Source of the DNA: Cochliopodium minus
Lineage: Eukaryota; Discosea; Himatismenida; Cochliopodiidae
Direction of reading: 5' to 3'
Length of the DNA stretch: 44,526 bases
Assembly (NCBI GenBank): GCA_024220525.1
Contig: JAMYWO010000300.1
Span: forward strand, 1-44,526
Positions 1,353 through 34,233 of the stretch are shown piece after piece. Under the pieces are notes generated by a model. That model was not told where the DNA came from and did no database searches. It saw only the letters and a program-made list of their open reading frames with translations. The translations under genes and the position numbers were made by a program. Position 1 is the first letter of the stretch. Every line of letters begins with the position of its first letter.

Positions 1353-1640
1353 AATTTCCTTTTGATTTTTTTCAATTTCATAAAATATTTTGGACTTTTT
1401 AAAAAATGATATCATAAAAATAAAATTCGAACATTTGAAATGAGTATTTTGCAATCAGAAAATGGCTGAATTTGGAAATTGTATATTGAAATCTGAATTA
1501 TGAAATCAAAATTAGCTCATTTCAGATTTTGGATATTATTAAAAGGAGTAAAAATTAATTACCCCTTTGAATTTTTTCTTTTGAGGAAAAAAAAAATTGT
1601 GTTTTTTCAAAGGTTATTAAAATGAAAAAAAAAAAAAAAA

Positions 1641-3383
1641 ATGGATTCCAAAGATTTTGATTTTAAGACAAATTATGAAGAGAAAACAATGGATTCTATT
1701 GCAGTTGATAGAATGAAAACTGATACAAAATCCATGACTTCGTCCAAGACTTCATCCATGACTTCGTCTAAGACTCACCCTAAAAAAGAAAGATATTTCC
1801 CATCTGATGTCAGTGAGTTAAGTTCAATTGAAAAGAGTATCAAAGAAAATAAATCTGAATCCTCCGAAACTTACAAGACAAAAGAAGAGGAAAAAAAAGA
1901 CCTAATAAAAAGGAAAGAAGAAATCAAAGACTTATTCAAAATAATTTCAAAAAGTGAACAAATTGACCTTGTTTTCTTGCTTGATACCACTGGATCAATG
2001 GGGAGTTGGATACATGAAGTTAAAGAGTCTATTTATCTATTAAATCAAAGACTGAAGAAAAATTATTCTGATTTGAAGATACAAACATCATTTGTAGGAT
2101 ATAAAGATTTTGATGTGAAAGAAACAGTTAGAACAGAAGTTCTCCAATTTACTGAGAGTAGATCAGAATTTAGAGATTTTGTTTCAAATATTAAAGCTTC
2201 AGGGGGAGGGGATACACCAGAGGACGTTTTTTCAGGAATTGAACAAGTATTATCTCTTAAATGGAGACAAGGTGGAACACGTATAATGATACATATAGCT
2301 GATGCACCTGTTCATGGAAATAGATTCCATTCATCATCAATGGAAGATGATTATCCAGATTCTGATCCTAAAGGAAGAACATGTGAGAATCTGATGGAAA
2401 GATTGTCAAAAATAGGAATCCAATATTTCTTTGGATACATAATTCCAGAAAATACGAATCAAATGATAGATGAATTCAATAAAGTTTTGAAAAATGTTGG
2501 CTCTAATAATCAAATAATCCAATTTGATTCGAAGGATCCATCTTCAATAACTGAATCTACCTACCTTGCTGTGACTCAATCAGTTCAAACTACAATTGGT
2601 GAGCTATCAGAAAAAAAAAAAAGATCACTAAGGGAATTTATAATTTCGAATCATATTCCGAATTGGGAAATTATTACTGAAGAAAAATGTCAGGTAATCG
2701 GATTCTCTCTTCCTAAAACAATAGAAGAAGTAATCGGTTATGGTTCCACACTCAAACCAAAAGAGCTAACATTATCATTTAAAATAGCTCCTAATCCATT
2801 TGCACAAGGTGCAACTAGAATAGCTTACAAAGCCTATCATGTTTCCCACAAAAAAGAGGTGGTGTTGAAAGAATCCAAGTGGGTGGGTGGTAGAAGCAAC
2901 TCTAAGAAAGCATATCTTGAAGATATGCAAACTCAAACAGTTGCAGCCCTCTTTTCAAAGTTTTTTAATGAAGAAAGCACTTTTTCTTTTAAAATAAAAT
3001 TTGCAGTTGCTAAATTAATCCAATTTAAGGAATCAACTGCTCCTAAGTATATGGCTTTGGAACCTCTTATAAGAGGGGAATACAAGAAATTTAACAACAA
3101 TGGTGGATGGATTTGCGATACAGAGGAGGGAAAAATATTGTCCTCTTTTTCTCATTGGACATTTAAAAAATCAAACAGAAATATGATGGTAGTTGATTTA
3201 CAGGGAGTCGTGAGTAAAGGGGATTATTTTCTGACCGATCCTGCGATTCACAGTAGAGATATTCTGAGATTTGGAAAGACAAATTTGGGAATTCCTGGAA
3301 TGAAGAGATTCTTTAAAACGCATGTTTGCAATGAATACTGCAAAAAACTTGGAATTGATGGTTTTACTTTAGAAAAGATATAA
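1641..3383 (+). CDS. VWA domain plus alpha-kinase (VwkA-like atypical kinase)
   Basis: Single exon, 580 residues, starting at an ATG behind a long A run. Residues 1-100 are a Ser/Thr/Lys-rich disordered head with a short SMTSSKT-type repeat. A von Willebrand A domain follows (about 108-310) with an intact metal-site motif DTTGSM at 115-120. The alpha-kinase domain spans about 375-572: glycine-rich GATRIA (390-395), candidate catalytic Lys410 in VVLKES, FSHWTF at 503-508, the VVDLQG motif with Asp519 and Gln521, LTDPAIHS at 531-538, the G-rich GKTNLGIPG segment at 545-553, and zinc-site residues H561, C563 and C567. This order is that of VwkA, an alpha-kinase of Dictyostelium that influences myosin II abundance and assembly. 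All key residues are present, so it should be active. Substrate is not shown by the sequence; myosin heavy chain or EF2 are candidates by family only. Confidence 0.92.
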   Translation: MDSKDFDFKTNYEEKTMDSIAVDRMKTDTKSMTSSKTSSMTSSKTHPKKERYFPSDVSELSSIEKSIKENKSESSETYKTKEEEKKDLIKRKEEIKDLFKIISKSEQIDLVFLLDTTGSMGSWIHEVKESIYLLNQRLKKNYSDLKIQTSFVGYKDFDVKETVRTEVLQFTESRSEFRDFVSNIKASGGGDTPEDVFSGIEQVLSLKWRQGGTRIMIHIADAPVHGNRFHSSSMEDDYPDSDPKGRTCENLMERLSKIGIQYFFGYIIPENTNQMIDEFNKVLKNVGSNNQIIQFDSKDPSSITESTYLAVTQSVQTTIGELSEKKKRSLREFIISNHIPNWEIITEEKCQVIGFSLPKTIEEVIGYGSTLKPKELTLSFKIAPNPFAQGATRIAYKAYHVSHKKEVVLKESKWVGGRSNSKKAYLEDMQTQTVAALFSKFFNEESTFSFKIKFAVAKLIQFKESTAPKYMALEPLIRGEYKKFNNNGGWICDTEEGKILSSFSHWTFKKSNRNMMVVDLQGVVSKGDYFLTDPAIHSRDILRFGKTNLGIPGMKRFFKTHVCNEYCKKLGIDGFTLEKI

Positions 3384-3460: not shown

Positions 3461-5106
3461 ATGGAAGACATATTTTCTAAAGAAAAATGGGATACAATAT
3501 TGAAAGCTTATAGGTTCCAATCAAAATATATTTTCTTGATCTTAATTTTATTTAATGAAGATGTATGCTCCCTTACAAAAATTTGTTGGGGATTTTTGAA
3601 AAATCATTCGAGGGAGAGGATTGGCATTCAATAGAGATCCAAACTAAATTCCACGAATATATCCTGCAAGATCAATTGACCATTAAATTCCCTCCGTCAA
3701 ATAAATACCGCAAGAATCTGATCAAATTATATATCCAATCTATAGAGAAAAGCAGGGAGGAGACATATGAACCCATCTATCATCATTATCTCGAATTATT
3801 GGCGCTGGAGAATAATTTCGATCAATTCGATCTCAATGATAGCGTGAAGAACGATATCTGCTACAAAACCTTTGATATAAATCAAGATGATCACATCACC
3901 ATCAAATTACATGAAAAATTCAGCAATGTGGGGCTCACCGATTGGTATTTACGATAAAAAAAAAAATCTTTTTTTTATTGAAAAAAAATAATGATTTGAT
4001 AGGGAAGCAGGTATATCAAATAAAATATAACGAATATAGATTAAAAGAGATATCAAATTATTATAATAAATTAATACTGAAACAAAGTCGTAAATTTTAG
4101 ACAAGCCTAGAAACTGTTCAAATAAAAAAATTGTATTCACAAAAAAATAAAATTAATTTAAAGCCAAATTGTTTAGTCATCATATCATTTGTTTCTTTTC
4201 TATAAATAATTTTAAATTCATGATTTTTTTTTTTAAAAGGATATCTTTTTGCTGAGTACGTCTTAACAAAAAAGTAAAATTTCATTTTTAAACATTTCTT
4301 TTATTTTTTAACATTTTTAATTTTTAATTTCCATTTTTTCATAGAGAACTCTTCTCTGGCAAGCGCATTCTCGAATTGGGATCAGGCATTGGTTTCACCG
4401 GGATGGTGATGAATTTGGTATCTCCTGAACACCTTGTACTAACAGACTACACTGAAAAGATAATGAATTTAATGAAAGATAACTTGGAAATAAGTAAAAA
4501 AAAAAAAAATATATAAAAATATATTCTTATTATTTAAAAGAATTATAAATATTAAAAAAAAAAATGTATAAAAGAATTATAAATATTAAAAAAAAAATGA
4601 TTTTAATTTTGATTTGTTTTCATTCTATTAAATAAATGTTGCCAACAATTTTTTTATTTTATCAAAAATTAATTAATTTCATTTTATTTTTCTCTCCAAA
4701 AGACCAACTCGATTTCCAGTTCCTCAAAGAAAAGGAACTCCCCCAAACCAAAAAAAGCCTCGAGATCATGGAGCTTAACTGGCTCAAATTCTCTGACAAC
4801 TCCGCCTTTCTCTCCTACCTCGAGCCACAACTCATCCTTGGTTGTGATATCATCTACGACATCGATTTGCACCATCATTTGCTCAATACTATCTGTTTTT
4901 TCGTCAATAAATATAACGATGTGCAAGTTTATTTGGCTAATGCCATCAGGACTTTGGAGACTTTTAATTGCTTCATGGAGCTTTCTCGTGAGAAGGGTTT
5001 GGACGTCGTGGAGGTTGATGTGGATGAGAATATTCAAAACTCTTTTTTTCATTATGAGAAAAGGTGCTCTGAAATCAAGATTTTGAAGCTCACAAAGAAA
5101 TTGTGA
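3461..5106 (+). CDS. EEF2KMT: EEF2KMT/FAM86-type elongation factor 2 lysine methyltransferase
   Basis: Six exons: 3461-3513, 3561-3944, 4003-4010, 4240-4273, 4345-4493, 4703-5106; total 1032 nt, 343 residues, close to the roughly 330 of human EEF2KMT. The family transfers methyl from SAM to a lysine of elongation factor 2 in the cytosol. Motifs seen: ITIKLHEKFSNVGLTDW before the domain, SAM motif I as LELGSGIGFTG (about 169-179), the post-I Asp in LVLTDY, the NW motif, and GCDIIYD as the DxxY-like element. Exons 2 and 4 cannot be joined directly; only the 8-nt exon GGAAGCAG with flanking AG and GT restores phase, giving WEAGYLFAEY, which lines up with WDAALYLAEW of the human protein. The start is the first in-frame ATG behind an A run. 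The 47-nt first intron has an unusual GTTCCA donor. An alpha-kinase gene lies just upstream on the same strand. Confidence 0.88.
4003..4010 (+). other. 8-nt microexon of the EEF2KMT gene
   Basis: GGAAGCAG, preceded by TTGATAG and followed by GTATAT. It completes the Trp codon split at 3944, adds Glu-Ala, and starts the Gly codon finished at 4240. Without it the downstream exon reads into a stop after about five codons. The encoded residues fit the conserved spacing of the family at this point. Confidence 0.8.
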
Positions 5107-30817: not shown

Positions 30818-32122
30818 TTAAATAAAAGAAAGATGAATGATGAAGAAAAGAAGATATTTTGGAAGTTTAGATCCTATTTTCTTTTGGAAATATTTTGAAA
30901 CAAGAACAAACTCAAGAATTGATTGTTTTATTTCGTTTGAGAAAAGAGAATGAGTTTGAGGAGACCATTCAAGAATATCACCTGATCCAATAAAAATTAA
31001 AGAAGGATCGTAAAAAACTAAATCATGATGAAAATTTTTTGAAGAAAAATATCCTCTTGAATGTTTTCATCTTTCATTATTGTTTGGGGTGATAATAATT
31101 CTTGTTTATCAATTTCTAAGCTTAATTGATTTTCTCTATTGAATCCAAAACCAATAATTTCTCCATCTTTTTTTAAAATAAGGGTGTGATCATTTGATAC
31201 TCTCATCATATTTATATTTTCTATTTTCATCAATAAAGTTGGTGTTTCTATTTTTTCTTGTTCCAATCCAAAAATTTTGTTTACACTATTTTTATTTTGA
31301 AATTATTTTAAATATTTTAAAGTTTTATTCAAAAAAAATTTAAAAATGAATAATTTAATTTTTACTTGTTTCCTAAAACATAAACTTCTCCATTTTTCTT
31401 GTGGTAAAAAGTTTGTTCATATCCACAAACAATATCTTCAATATCAAGATCATTCAATAAGAAAGTGGGTGCATTTCTGTCAAAATCATCTCCCAATCCA
31501 AGTTGTCCATATTCATTACTCCCAAAAACCAACAAATCTCCATTTTCTTTGTAAATAATCGAATGATTTCTTCCCAATCTTATCATTTTGATCGTTTTAT
31601 CTTTCATCAACAAAATTGGAGTTGATAGTTTGTAAATTTCTGAATTTCCAATTCCTAATTGCCCACAATCATTTCTACCAAACGCCAATAATTCTCCATT
31701 TTCTTTGTAAATCATTGTATGATTTGCTCCACATGAAATTAATTTGATTGTCGGATCATTCATTACGAATACTTCTTCAAATTGAGTTTTATAATTTCCT
31801 ATTCCTAATTCTCCAGATTTATTGTATCCAAATGCAAACAAATCTCCATTTTTATAGAAGATCAAAGAAAAGCAACCTCCCAAACAAATGGATTTTATAT
31901 TTTTATCATTCTTCAATAAAATTGGTTCATCTGTTTCTTCTATATCTTTTCCAATTCCTAATTGACCAAAGATATTATCTCCATATCCAAATAAATCTCC
32001 ATTATCTATTTAAATTTGTTGAAAATAATTGATTTATGGAAGAAAATATAAATAAACTAAATATTTTTACAACAATAAAAAAAGAGATGGTCTGAAATGT
32101 ATCCATTGCTAATTCTTTTCAT
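30818..32122 (-). CDS. RCC1-repeat protein with apparent C-terminal frame break
   Basis: Exons in transcript order: 32071-32122, 31366-32005, then 31285 downward. The protein is a run of about six RCC1 beta-propeller blades of the form NGDLFAFGYNKSGELGIG, spaced about 53 residues. The start ATG follows an A run. Zero frame ends at a stop at 31018-31020, but the next frame then runs open to a stop at 30818-30820 and encodes KYFQKKIGSKLPKYLLFFII after a WSPQTHSLF motif, a tail I have seen behind RCC1 repeats in amoeboid protist proteins. The switch falls in the homopolymer A4T6 at 31031-31040 and needs one base more or less; no intron explains it. It could be a sequencing error, a true recent mutation or unusual frameshifting. 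RCC1 propellers serve as exchange factors or adaptors; the partner is unknown. Confidence 0.75.
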
Positions 32123-33008: not shown

Positions 33009-34233
33009 ATGGAATGCCCCATATGTTTTCTAAAAATTGAAGAATATATGATAGAAATTCATGTCAATGATTGTTTGAATATAAGAAATACCGAGAATAT
33101 TCAAGAGAATTCGAATATCCCTCAAACAGTATCATCTAAGGATAAAATTTATAAAAAGGAATTAATTGTGGAAAAGAACACTACCATTTTGAAAGAGAAG
33201 CAGGAAATCCTAAATTTCTTTGTTGAATCCCTGAAAACATCTAAAAAATCCATTTTTATTGTTTCTCCCTGGATAACCGAAAAAGGTAGAAAATTTTATG
33301 TTTGCTTTAAAATATAAACAATAATTTTATTCTAGCTTTGATTTCGAATAATCTGTTGGGAATTTTTGAACAAACATTACAAAGAAAAGTAGAAATAACT
33401 ATATATTATGATCCAACGAAATGCATCTCAGTGGATGATGAGATAACAGGGCCAGATTTCTTAATAATGAAATTGAGTAAGTATCTCAATATCAATTTAA
33501 AGCTCATCCCGATGAATAGAATGCACGAGAAATTATTCATCAAAGATGGAGAAACATTGGCAATAGGTTCTTTTAATTGGCTCTCTGGATGTTTCTCAGA
33601 ATCTTATGGAGACTCCAATATAATCAATGTAATAGAAGATAAAAGTCAAGCAGAGGATTTGGTGAAAACCTATGAAAATAGAAAAAATTTTGAAGAAGGC
33701 AAGAATAAAAATATTTTAATTTAATATGAATTAATAATAAATTAAAAACATTTTTTTCGAAAAAAATAGTTGCAATAAACAACACAAATATTGTCGAAAA
33801 AAGAAATATCAATACACAAATTATTAACACAAAAAAAAGGAGTGACTCTTTCCATAATGATAGTTGTTTCAGGTGTGGGAGAGAAGGTCACTACTCTGAT
33901 AAATGTTTTGCAAAAACTCATGTGAGTGGAAAAGTTATTTCTGATTCATCTGATTCCTCTTCTGAAGAAGAAACTTGTTTTAGGTGTGGGAGAGTGGGAC
34001 ATTATGCTAGTAATTGTTATGCCAAAACGCGTGTTGTTCAGTCTCAACCTGAAAGTGACACTTGTTTCAAATGTGGGAGAGTGGGACATTATGCTAGTAA
34101 TTGTTATGCCAAAACGCGTGTTGTTCAATCTCAACCTGAAAGTGACACTTGTTTTAAGTGTGGAAGGGAGGGACATTACGCTAATAATTGTTATGCTAAA
34201 ACTCACATAAAAGGTTATAAAATTTATGATTAA
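33009..34233 (+). CDS. UBZ finger, PLD/HKD nuclease-like domain and four CCHC zinc knuckles
   Basis: Three exons: 33009-33285, 33336-33698, 33770-34233; 1104 nt, 367 residues. The second intron is GC-AG (donor AAG then GCAAGA). Residues 3-22 form a UBZ4-like finger (CPIC then H18 and C22). Residues about 60-210 are a single PLD-type domain: LNFFVESLKTSKKSIFIVSPWI, then the HKD motif MHEKLFIKDGETLAIGSFNW with His156, Lys158, Asp163, Gly170-Ser171 and Asn173. One HKD per chain means a homodimer, as in mitochondrial PLD6/Zucchini, a phosphodiesterase or RNase. Four CX2CX4HX4C knuckles start at residues 246, 283, 312 and 341, the last three 29 residues apart. Knuckles of this kind bind single-stranded nucleic acid. 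The combination suggests a nucleic-acid phosphodiesterase with ubiquitin binding; the function is inferred. Confidence 0.85.

Follow-up and report, generated by a model that had tools for sequence, protein, structure and literature searches.

What would a protein do that carries, in a single chain, a zinc finger with UBZ4 spacing, a PLD domain with one catalytic motif and a row of four CCHC zinc knuckles? The question is raised by a locus at positions 33009-34233 (plus strand) of the window, which is the whole stretch of DNA analyzed here, 44,526 bases long, and corresponds to the entire contig C297 of an AT-rich assembly of 44.65 Mb in 598 contigs. The original prediction described one protein of 367 residues with a ubiquitin finger, a Zucchini-like PLD part and zinc knuckles, and proposed a ubiquitin-directed nuclease with possible functions in repair, small-RNA processing or defense. 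The gene structure, the affinities of each domain and the genomic context were evaluated to determine which parts of this description hold.

Gene structure and genomic setting

Splice enumeration, allowing GT or GC donors and AG acceptors, returned exactly the predicted 367-residue protein from three exons of 33009-34233, and the presence of a UBZ4-spaced finger, a single intact HKD motif and four CCHC knuckles in one gene was borne out. Exon 1 (33009-33285, on the plus strand like all features of the gene given below) encodes the finger, a linker and the first strand and helix of the PLD domain, comprising residues 1-92 plus base 1 of codon 93. The bulk of the PLD domain is in exon 2 (33336-33698; 363 nt), and exon 3 (33770-34233) provides a linker, the four knuckles and the stop codon. 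Intron 1 (33286-33335) is a GT-AG intron of 50 nt (GTAGAA...TTCTAG), whereas intron 2 (33699-33769; 71 nt) has GC-AG borders (GCAAGA...AAATAG). Just one other open model was obtained, using an alternative intron 2 donor, GTCAAG at 33645, which yields 349 residues with identical domains and drops 18 residues from the end of the PLD part. The GCAAGA donor was favored because all seven donors resolved elsewhere in the genome begin with GTAA, from a comparison of 11 exon pairs in which a unique intron was resolved in seven, three gave zero solutions and one gave four. GCAAGA equals the genome donor consensus except for its C, and GTCAAG deviates. Judged by sequence, the three-exon model is confirmed as real and is open throughout.

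The junction to the knuckles is of particular relevance. Exon 3 lacks an ATG in the knuckle frame, where a start-like codon, GTG at 33922, first appears past knuckle 1; the knuckles therefore need splicing to upstream sequence and, for the sequence as it stands, cannot constitute a separate gene. The length of exon 2 is a multiple of three, so that skipping of this exon would preserve the frame, with a nuclease-free finger-knuckle protein as the predicted product.

The neighborhood was surveyed by Pfam for seven reading frames of the window and by eye for the remaining frames. The neighbors are of eukaryotic type (VWA-alpha-kinase, TBC, spectrin/CH/EF-hand, RCC1 and MFS), and the contig gives no impression of bacterial contamination. 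An Rfam scan of the window returned 0 matches. The reading frame at 1626-3380 (plus strand) joins a VWA domain to an alpha-kinase domain (166.8 bits), an arrangement resembling that of the VwkA proteins of amoebae. RCC1 repeats are located at 31365-32009 (minus strand) of the window, beside the gene under study, and other RCC1 repeats adjoin a paralogous PLD copy on contig C17 that is described below; a functional link to the RCC1 genes was dismissed because such repeats are very common in the genome (1,306 candidates, with 150 of 150 scored matching).

Affinities of the PLD domain

The middle part of the protein (33225-33673; residues 73-205, split by intron 1) was placed in the PLD family by HMM, as originally proposed, with the Pfam model PLDc_2 matching at 4.5e-8 and with 33.4 bits for the whole protein and 35.9 bits for the domain alone, above the curated cut-off of 27. 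The HKD signature at 33524-33577 (H156-E-K158-x4-D163 ... G-S-F-N173) is a complete HxKx4Dx6GSxN motif, including H156, K158, D163, G170, S171 and N173. Searches with PADLOC models gave the best match of the PLD part to MkoC (2e-21, 73.8 bits), on the C-terminal PLD region of that protein (983-1130 of 1136), with lesser matches to MkoB (2.2e-11), DrmC (28.8 bits) and DpdK (20.5 bits); in NCBIfam the match was to NucT, at 26 bits only. Four whole bacterial MkoB proteins scored 63-70 bits on MkoC, slightly under the window PLD.

Profiles constructed for this analysis from 28 MkoC (Mokosh type II), 4 MkoB (Mokosh type I) and 8 Nuc/PLD6 sequences gave scores for the window PLD of 85, 66 and 23 bits, respectively. 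In a size-matched control using 8 MkoC versus 8 Nuc/PLD6 sequences, the window PLD scored 77.8 bits on MkoC, the 4 MkoB proteins 52-59 and the 8 Nuc/PLD6 proteins 16-28. The motifs IVSPW, HxKx4D and GSFNWLS are common to the window PLD and MkoC, and identity to the aligned bacterial PLD domains is only 19-26%. Because of these profile scores, the size-matched control included, the domain is by profile Mokosh-type and not Zucchini-type among the families compared.

Two other PLD sequences in the genome aid interpretation. The copy on C17 (C17:149124-149516, minus strand; L009/L011) is 30% identical over residues 41-175 and scored 38, 47 and 2 bits on the MkoC, MkoB and Nuc/PLD6 profiles. It matches MkoC at 2.8e-11, is missed by the Pfam PLD models at E 0.01, carries N where the HKD histidine would be, and has an acidic tail; finger and knuckles were not seen by eye in its two open stretches. 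It is possibly a pseudoenzyme. The other is a PLD6-like single-HKD exon (C91:87865-88209, minus strand; L012, C91:85000-91000), matching PLDc_2 at 102.6 bits and PDB PLD6 at 94.5 bits, for which the three profiles gave 26, 10 and 141 bits.

In a 43-row tree, the window PLD and the C17 copy joined one another (96/85) and grouped with MkoB (95/93), apart from Nuc/PLD6 (100/100). Long branches lead to the window PLD, to the C17 copy and to one of the MkoB rows, a situation in which, by the program's own warning, groupings can be spurious; with MkoB and C17 removed, the rows nearest to the window were MkoC, unsupported. AU tests rejected neither the window held with Nuc/PLD6 (p 0.42), nor both protist PLDs held with Nuc/PLD6 (p 0.47), nor all Mko sequences together without the protist PLDs (p 0.45). 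Closeness to Mokosh is to be read as similarity of profiles, with common descent left unsettled by the tree.

Several of these results bear on whether the protein could be a Zucchini/PLD6-type enzyme for piRNA-like small-RNA processing. It shares with PLD6 and Zucchini the superfamily, the PLDc_2 domain and a single HKD motif, the AU test leaves the Nuc/PLD6 side permitted, and an RdRP gene (PF05183) was found in the assembly as five exon-wise matches at C54:103715-106009 (control matched in 0 of 14 genomes). However, the scores of 23 bits on Nuc/PLD6 versus 85 on MkoC do not suit such an enzyme, and the place of a PLD6 relative in this genome is held by the separate C91 gene. Six-frame exon searches also gave no match in the assembly, which is possibly incomplete, for Piwi (control matched in 1 of 14 genomes) and none for RNase III (control matched in 8 of 14); the PAZ search was uninformative, its control matching in no genome. 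Searches of this type are able to find intron-broken genes, as they recovered the RdRP gene, which is split. A piRNA role for the window protein is unlikely because neither Piwi nor RNase III was detected, and the small-RNA role suggested originally is weakened accordingly. Zucchini/PLD6 identity, and with it the "Zucchini-like" designation, was rejected by the profile scores, though the AU test alone would permit it, and small-RNA processing by an enzyme of this type is considered very unlikely.

Relatives of the Mokosh-type domain were sought in plasmids, in GTDB and in viral sequences. A tblastn search with the PLD part gave 56 plasmid records (lowest E-value 9e-11, 66 bits, from Pseudomonas), of which 36 were annotated as AAA-domain, 8 as PLD-like or PLD-family, and 12 were unannotated, hypothetical or bare CDS, in a sample where Agrobacterium contributes 23 of the 56 records and many are near-copies. 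Four AAA-domain plasmid proteins scanned whole were all near-full-length MkoC (1031-1387 bits) with AAA_11/AAA_12 helicase domains, and four separate plasmid PLD proteins were MkoB (178-290 bits), encoded next to a gene for either a serine/threonine kinase or an AAA-domain protein. A GTDB scan gave 41 confirmed loci, of which 36 encode Walker A within the ORF that holds the PLD match. This count is biased, since MkoC sequences went into the query alignment, and it characterizes the relatives of an MkoC-leaning query without speaking against closer ones elsewhere. Among the five loci without Walker A, three (L054, L058, L061) are cut by a contig end and two (L060, L063) have shorter ORFs. A giant-virus or phage origin was set aside: in viral contigs a single-protein query found 0 relatives and an alignment query 2, each having Walker A in the frame that also encodes the PLD match, and the phage search gave 2 records at E 3e-6 each. 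On an E. coli plasmid (NZ_CP135245.1; L025), the match at 4501-4869 is an unannotated MkoC-type PLD frame located downstream from an IS66-like transposase gene; the insertion may have disrupted the original gene.

Zinc knuckles and the N-terminal finger

The four CCHC knuckles, at 33865-33906 (C-x2-C-x4-H-x4-C), 33976-34017, 34063-34104 and 34150-34191, were recognized by the Pfam model zf-CCHC in four stretches (1e-18, 66.9 bits; cut-off 20.8). Such knuckles generally bind nucleic acid. Knuckles 2, 3 and 4 lie within a tandem array of 2.6 copies of an 87-bp unit (33973-34202). Comparison of knuckles 3 and 4 gave 7 nt differences that are synonymous and 2 that change codons, with corresponding values of 5 and 3 for knuckles 2 and 4, 1 and 2 for knuckles 2 and 3, and 5-7 synonymous and 6-10 codon-changing differences for the three pairs involving knuckle 1. 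Selection on the knuckle repeats is only hinted at, because a synonymous excess is seen in pair 3-4 and little or none in the other five pairs. Derivation of the knuckles from a repeated retroelement was also tried and rejected; among six genome candidates scored, the best other one reached 13.7 bits (E 0.48).

These comparisons, together with the gene model, address whether the locus might be a decaying or rarely expressed gene without function, or a model that wrongly fuses two genes. The intron 2 donor is a non-canonical GC (or else an unusual GT), and the C17 paralogue has lost the catalytic His, both of which would be compatible with decay or misjoining. Such an explanation has to contend with three exons that are all open and join in frame, with the integrity of the catalytic residues and of every zinc ligand, four in the finger and 16 in the knuckles, with the absence of an ATG from exon 3, and with the synonymous excess between knuckles 3 and 4 (though with little or none in the other five pairs), and it appears highly improbable. 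An intact gene for one protein is preferred.

The N-terminal C2HC finger (33015-33074) has the pattern C-x2-C-x11-H-x3-C, with ligands C3, C6, H18 and C22 and the spacing of UBZ4. Six-frame translation of the window gives 27,901 residues in stretches of 50 aa or longer, among which the pattern turned up once; in 200 shuffled sets it turned up 0 times. Against Pfam the finger gave nothing above cut-off (best RNF220, E 0.034), so that of the three domains proposed originally the PLD part and the knuckles were recovered by HMM search above their Pfam cut-offs and the finger fell below. Against PDB sequences the top two matches, although weak, were both RAD18 UBZ4 (E 0.048 and 0.054), and the finger fold is likely UBZ4-like. 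In the RAD18 alignment N20 is opposite D221. A RAD18 study describes this aspartate as present in every zinc finger shown to bind ubiquitin up to 2011, and reports that co-precipitation of ubiquitylated H2A is lost in D221A (PMC3157352). Ubiquitin binding by the window finger is doubtful because N20 replaces this conserved ubiquitin-binding residue, and the ubiquitin-directed aspect of the original prediction is weakened, the aspartate needed by the RAD18 UBZ4 finger being asparagine here.

A ubiquitin-directed DNA-repair nuclease, in which the finger would target the PLD domain to ubiquitylated chromatin or PCNA while the knuckles bind single-stranded DNA, has some precedent in FAN1 and SNM1A, which are nucleases with a UBZ4-like finger. 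Their nuclease folds (VRR-Nuc and metallo-beta-lactamase) are unrelated to PLD, however, and neither protein is known to carry CCHC knuckles. The exact UBZ4 spacing, its uniqueness within the six-frame stretches of the window and the RAD18 fingers as top PDB matches would suit a repair function, whereas the weakness of the RAD18 match and N20 in place of D221 would not. Linked Argonaute or repair genes, for which a search of the neighborhood had been suggested, were not noticed on the contig, in seven window frames by Pfam and the others by eye, and likewise no helicase gene. Repair directed by ubiquitin is thus regarded as unlikely.

A proposed stand-alone nuclease

The PLD domains closest to the one studied here are nuclease domains that are either joined to a helicase or encoded beside one, and because of this a nuclease, as in the original prediction, is supported as the likelier activity of the window protein. 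The preferred reading, held with slightly better than even confidence, is a stand-alone nuclease having a Mokosh-type single-HKD core, which would grip single-stranded RNA or DNA with its knuckles and dock through its finger. Nuc, PLD6 and other enzymes with a single HKD provide the model for a dimeric active site; by analogy, the window protein is probably a dimer, in which two chains would pair, the two H156 residues would build one active site, and phosphodiester bonds would be cut without a metal ion. The four knuckles would keep single-stranded RNA (or DNA, RNA being the presumed preference) close to that site, and the C2HC finger may be a docking site for a partner, with ubiquitin conceivable though the key aspartate is missing.

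Two sources describe MkoC as an N-terminal RNA helicase with a C-terminal PLD nuclease (PMC10013915, PMC11672841), and the knuckles may deal with the substrate here as the fused helicase does in bacterial MkoC. The C-terminal PLD of MkoC is the best profile match and shares the motifs given above, but the window protein has no helicase domain by Pfam, adds a C2HC finger and four CCHC knuckles, and is encoded by a eukaryotic gene with introns. MkoB, the second-best profile match, resembles it in being a PLD protein separate from a helicase and in grouping with it in the tree (on long branches); in contrast, the four MkoB genes adjoin a kinase or AAA-domain gene, none of which was noticed beside the window gene, and no knuckles were noted in the MkoB match. 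A Mokosh system requires a helicase, a COG1112 RNA helicase either fused or adjacent, and the window gene has neither arrangement. No match to the MkoC helicase was found on C297, and those in the genome, among the matches listed, are on eight contigs that include neither C297 nor C17.

The HKD motif alone cannot distinguish substrates, and a PLD that acts on lipids was considered as well. PLD6, with its single HKD, can hydrolyse cardiolipin, and single-HKD enzymes may act on lipids, so that a cardiolipin hydrolase or similar enzyme with accessory fingers might be envisaged. Such an enzyme is quite unlikely here given four fused knuckles of a kind that in general binds nucleic acid, nearest PLD domains that occur within helicase fusions or beside kinase or helicase genes, and no membrane segment evident by eye in the protein.

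For the stand-alone nuclease, the most likely role, still a guess, would be decay of unwanted RNA, whether viral, transposon or damaged. Mokosh degrades foreign viral transcripts, according to a paper on Asgard defense (PMC11291487). A more far-reaching proposal, tentative and on the unlikely side, is that a Mokosh nuclease was kept or captured by a eukaryote, freed from its helicase, and re-equipped with RNA-binding knuckles and a finger for docking, so as to act as a cell-autonomous defense against viral or transposon RNA. The C17 copy, with its dead site, might serve as a decoy or regulator.

No description of the finger-PLD-knuckles order was found in the open literature, among the matches listed and with PDB sequences as the eukaryotic protein database covered. 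Provisionally, the gene represents a known type of nuclease domain in a setting not found reported. With this order, a PLD nuclease would be supplied with substrate in a new way that needs no helicase, and the gene offers a concrete protein for assay.

The genome also suggests that two kinds of single-HKD PLD, Mokosh-like and PLD6-like, can coexist in one eukaryote. In animals, Papi/TDRKH and Zucchini are partners. The KH domains of Papi bind piRNA precursors, as stated in PMC8938449. Upstream of the PLD6-like exon on C91 lie two KH domains, scoring 49.8 and 54.8 bits; enumeration resolved the intron between KH1 and KH2 but not the joint between KH2 and the PLD exon. If it is one gene, it would fuse what are partner proteins in animals, in a genome in which Piwi was not detected.
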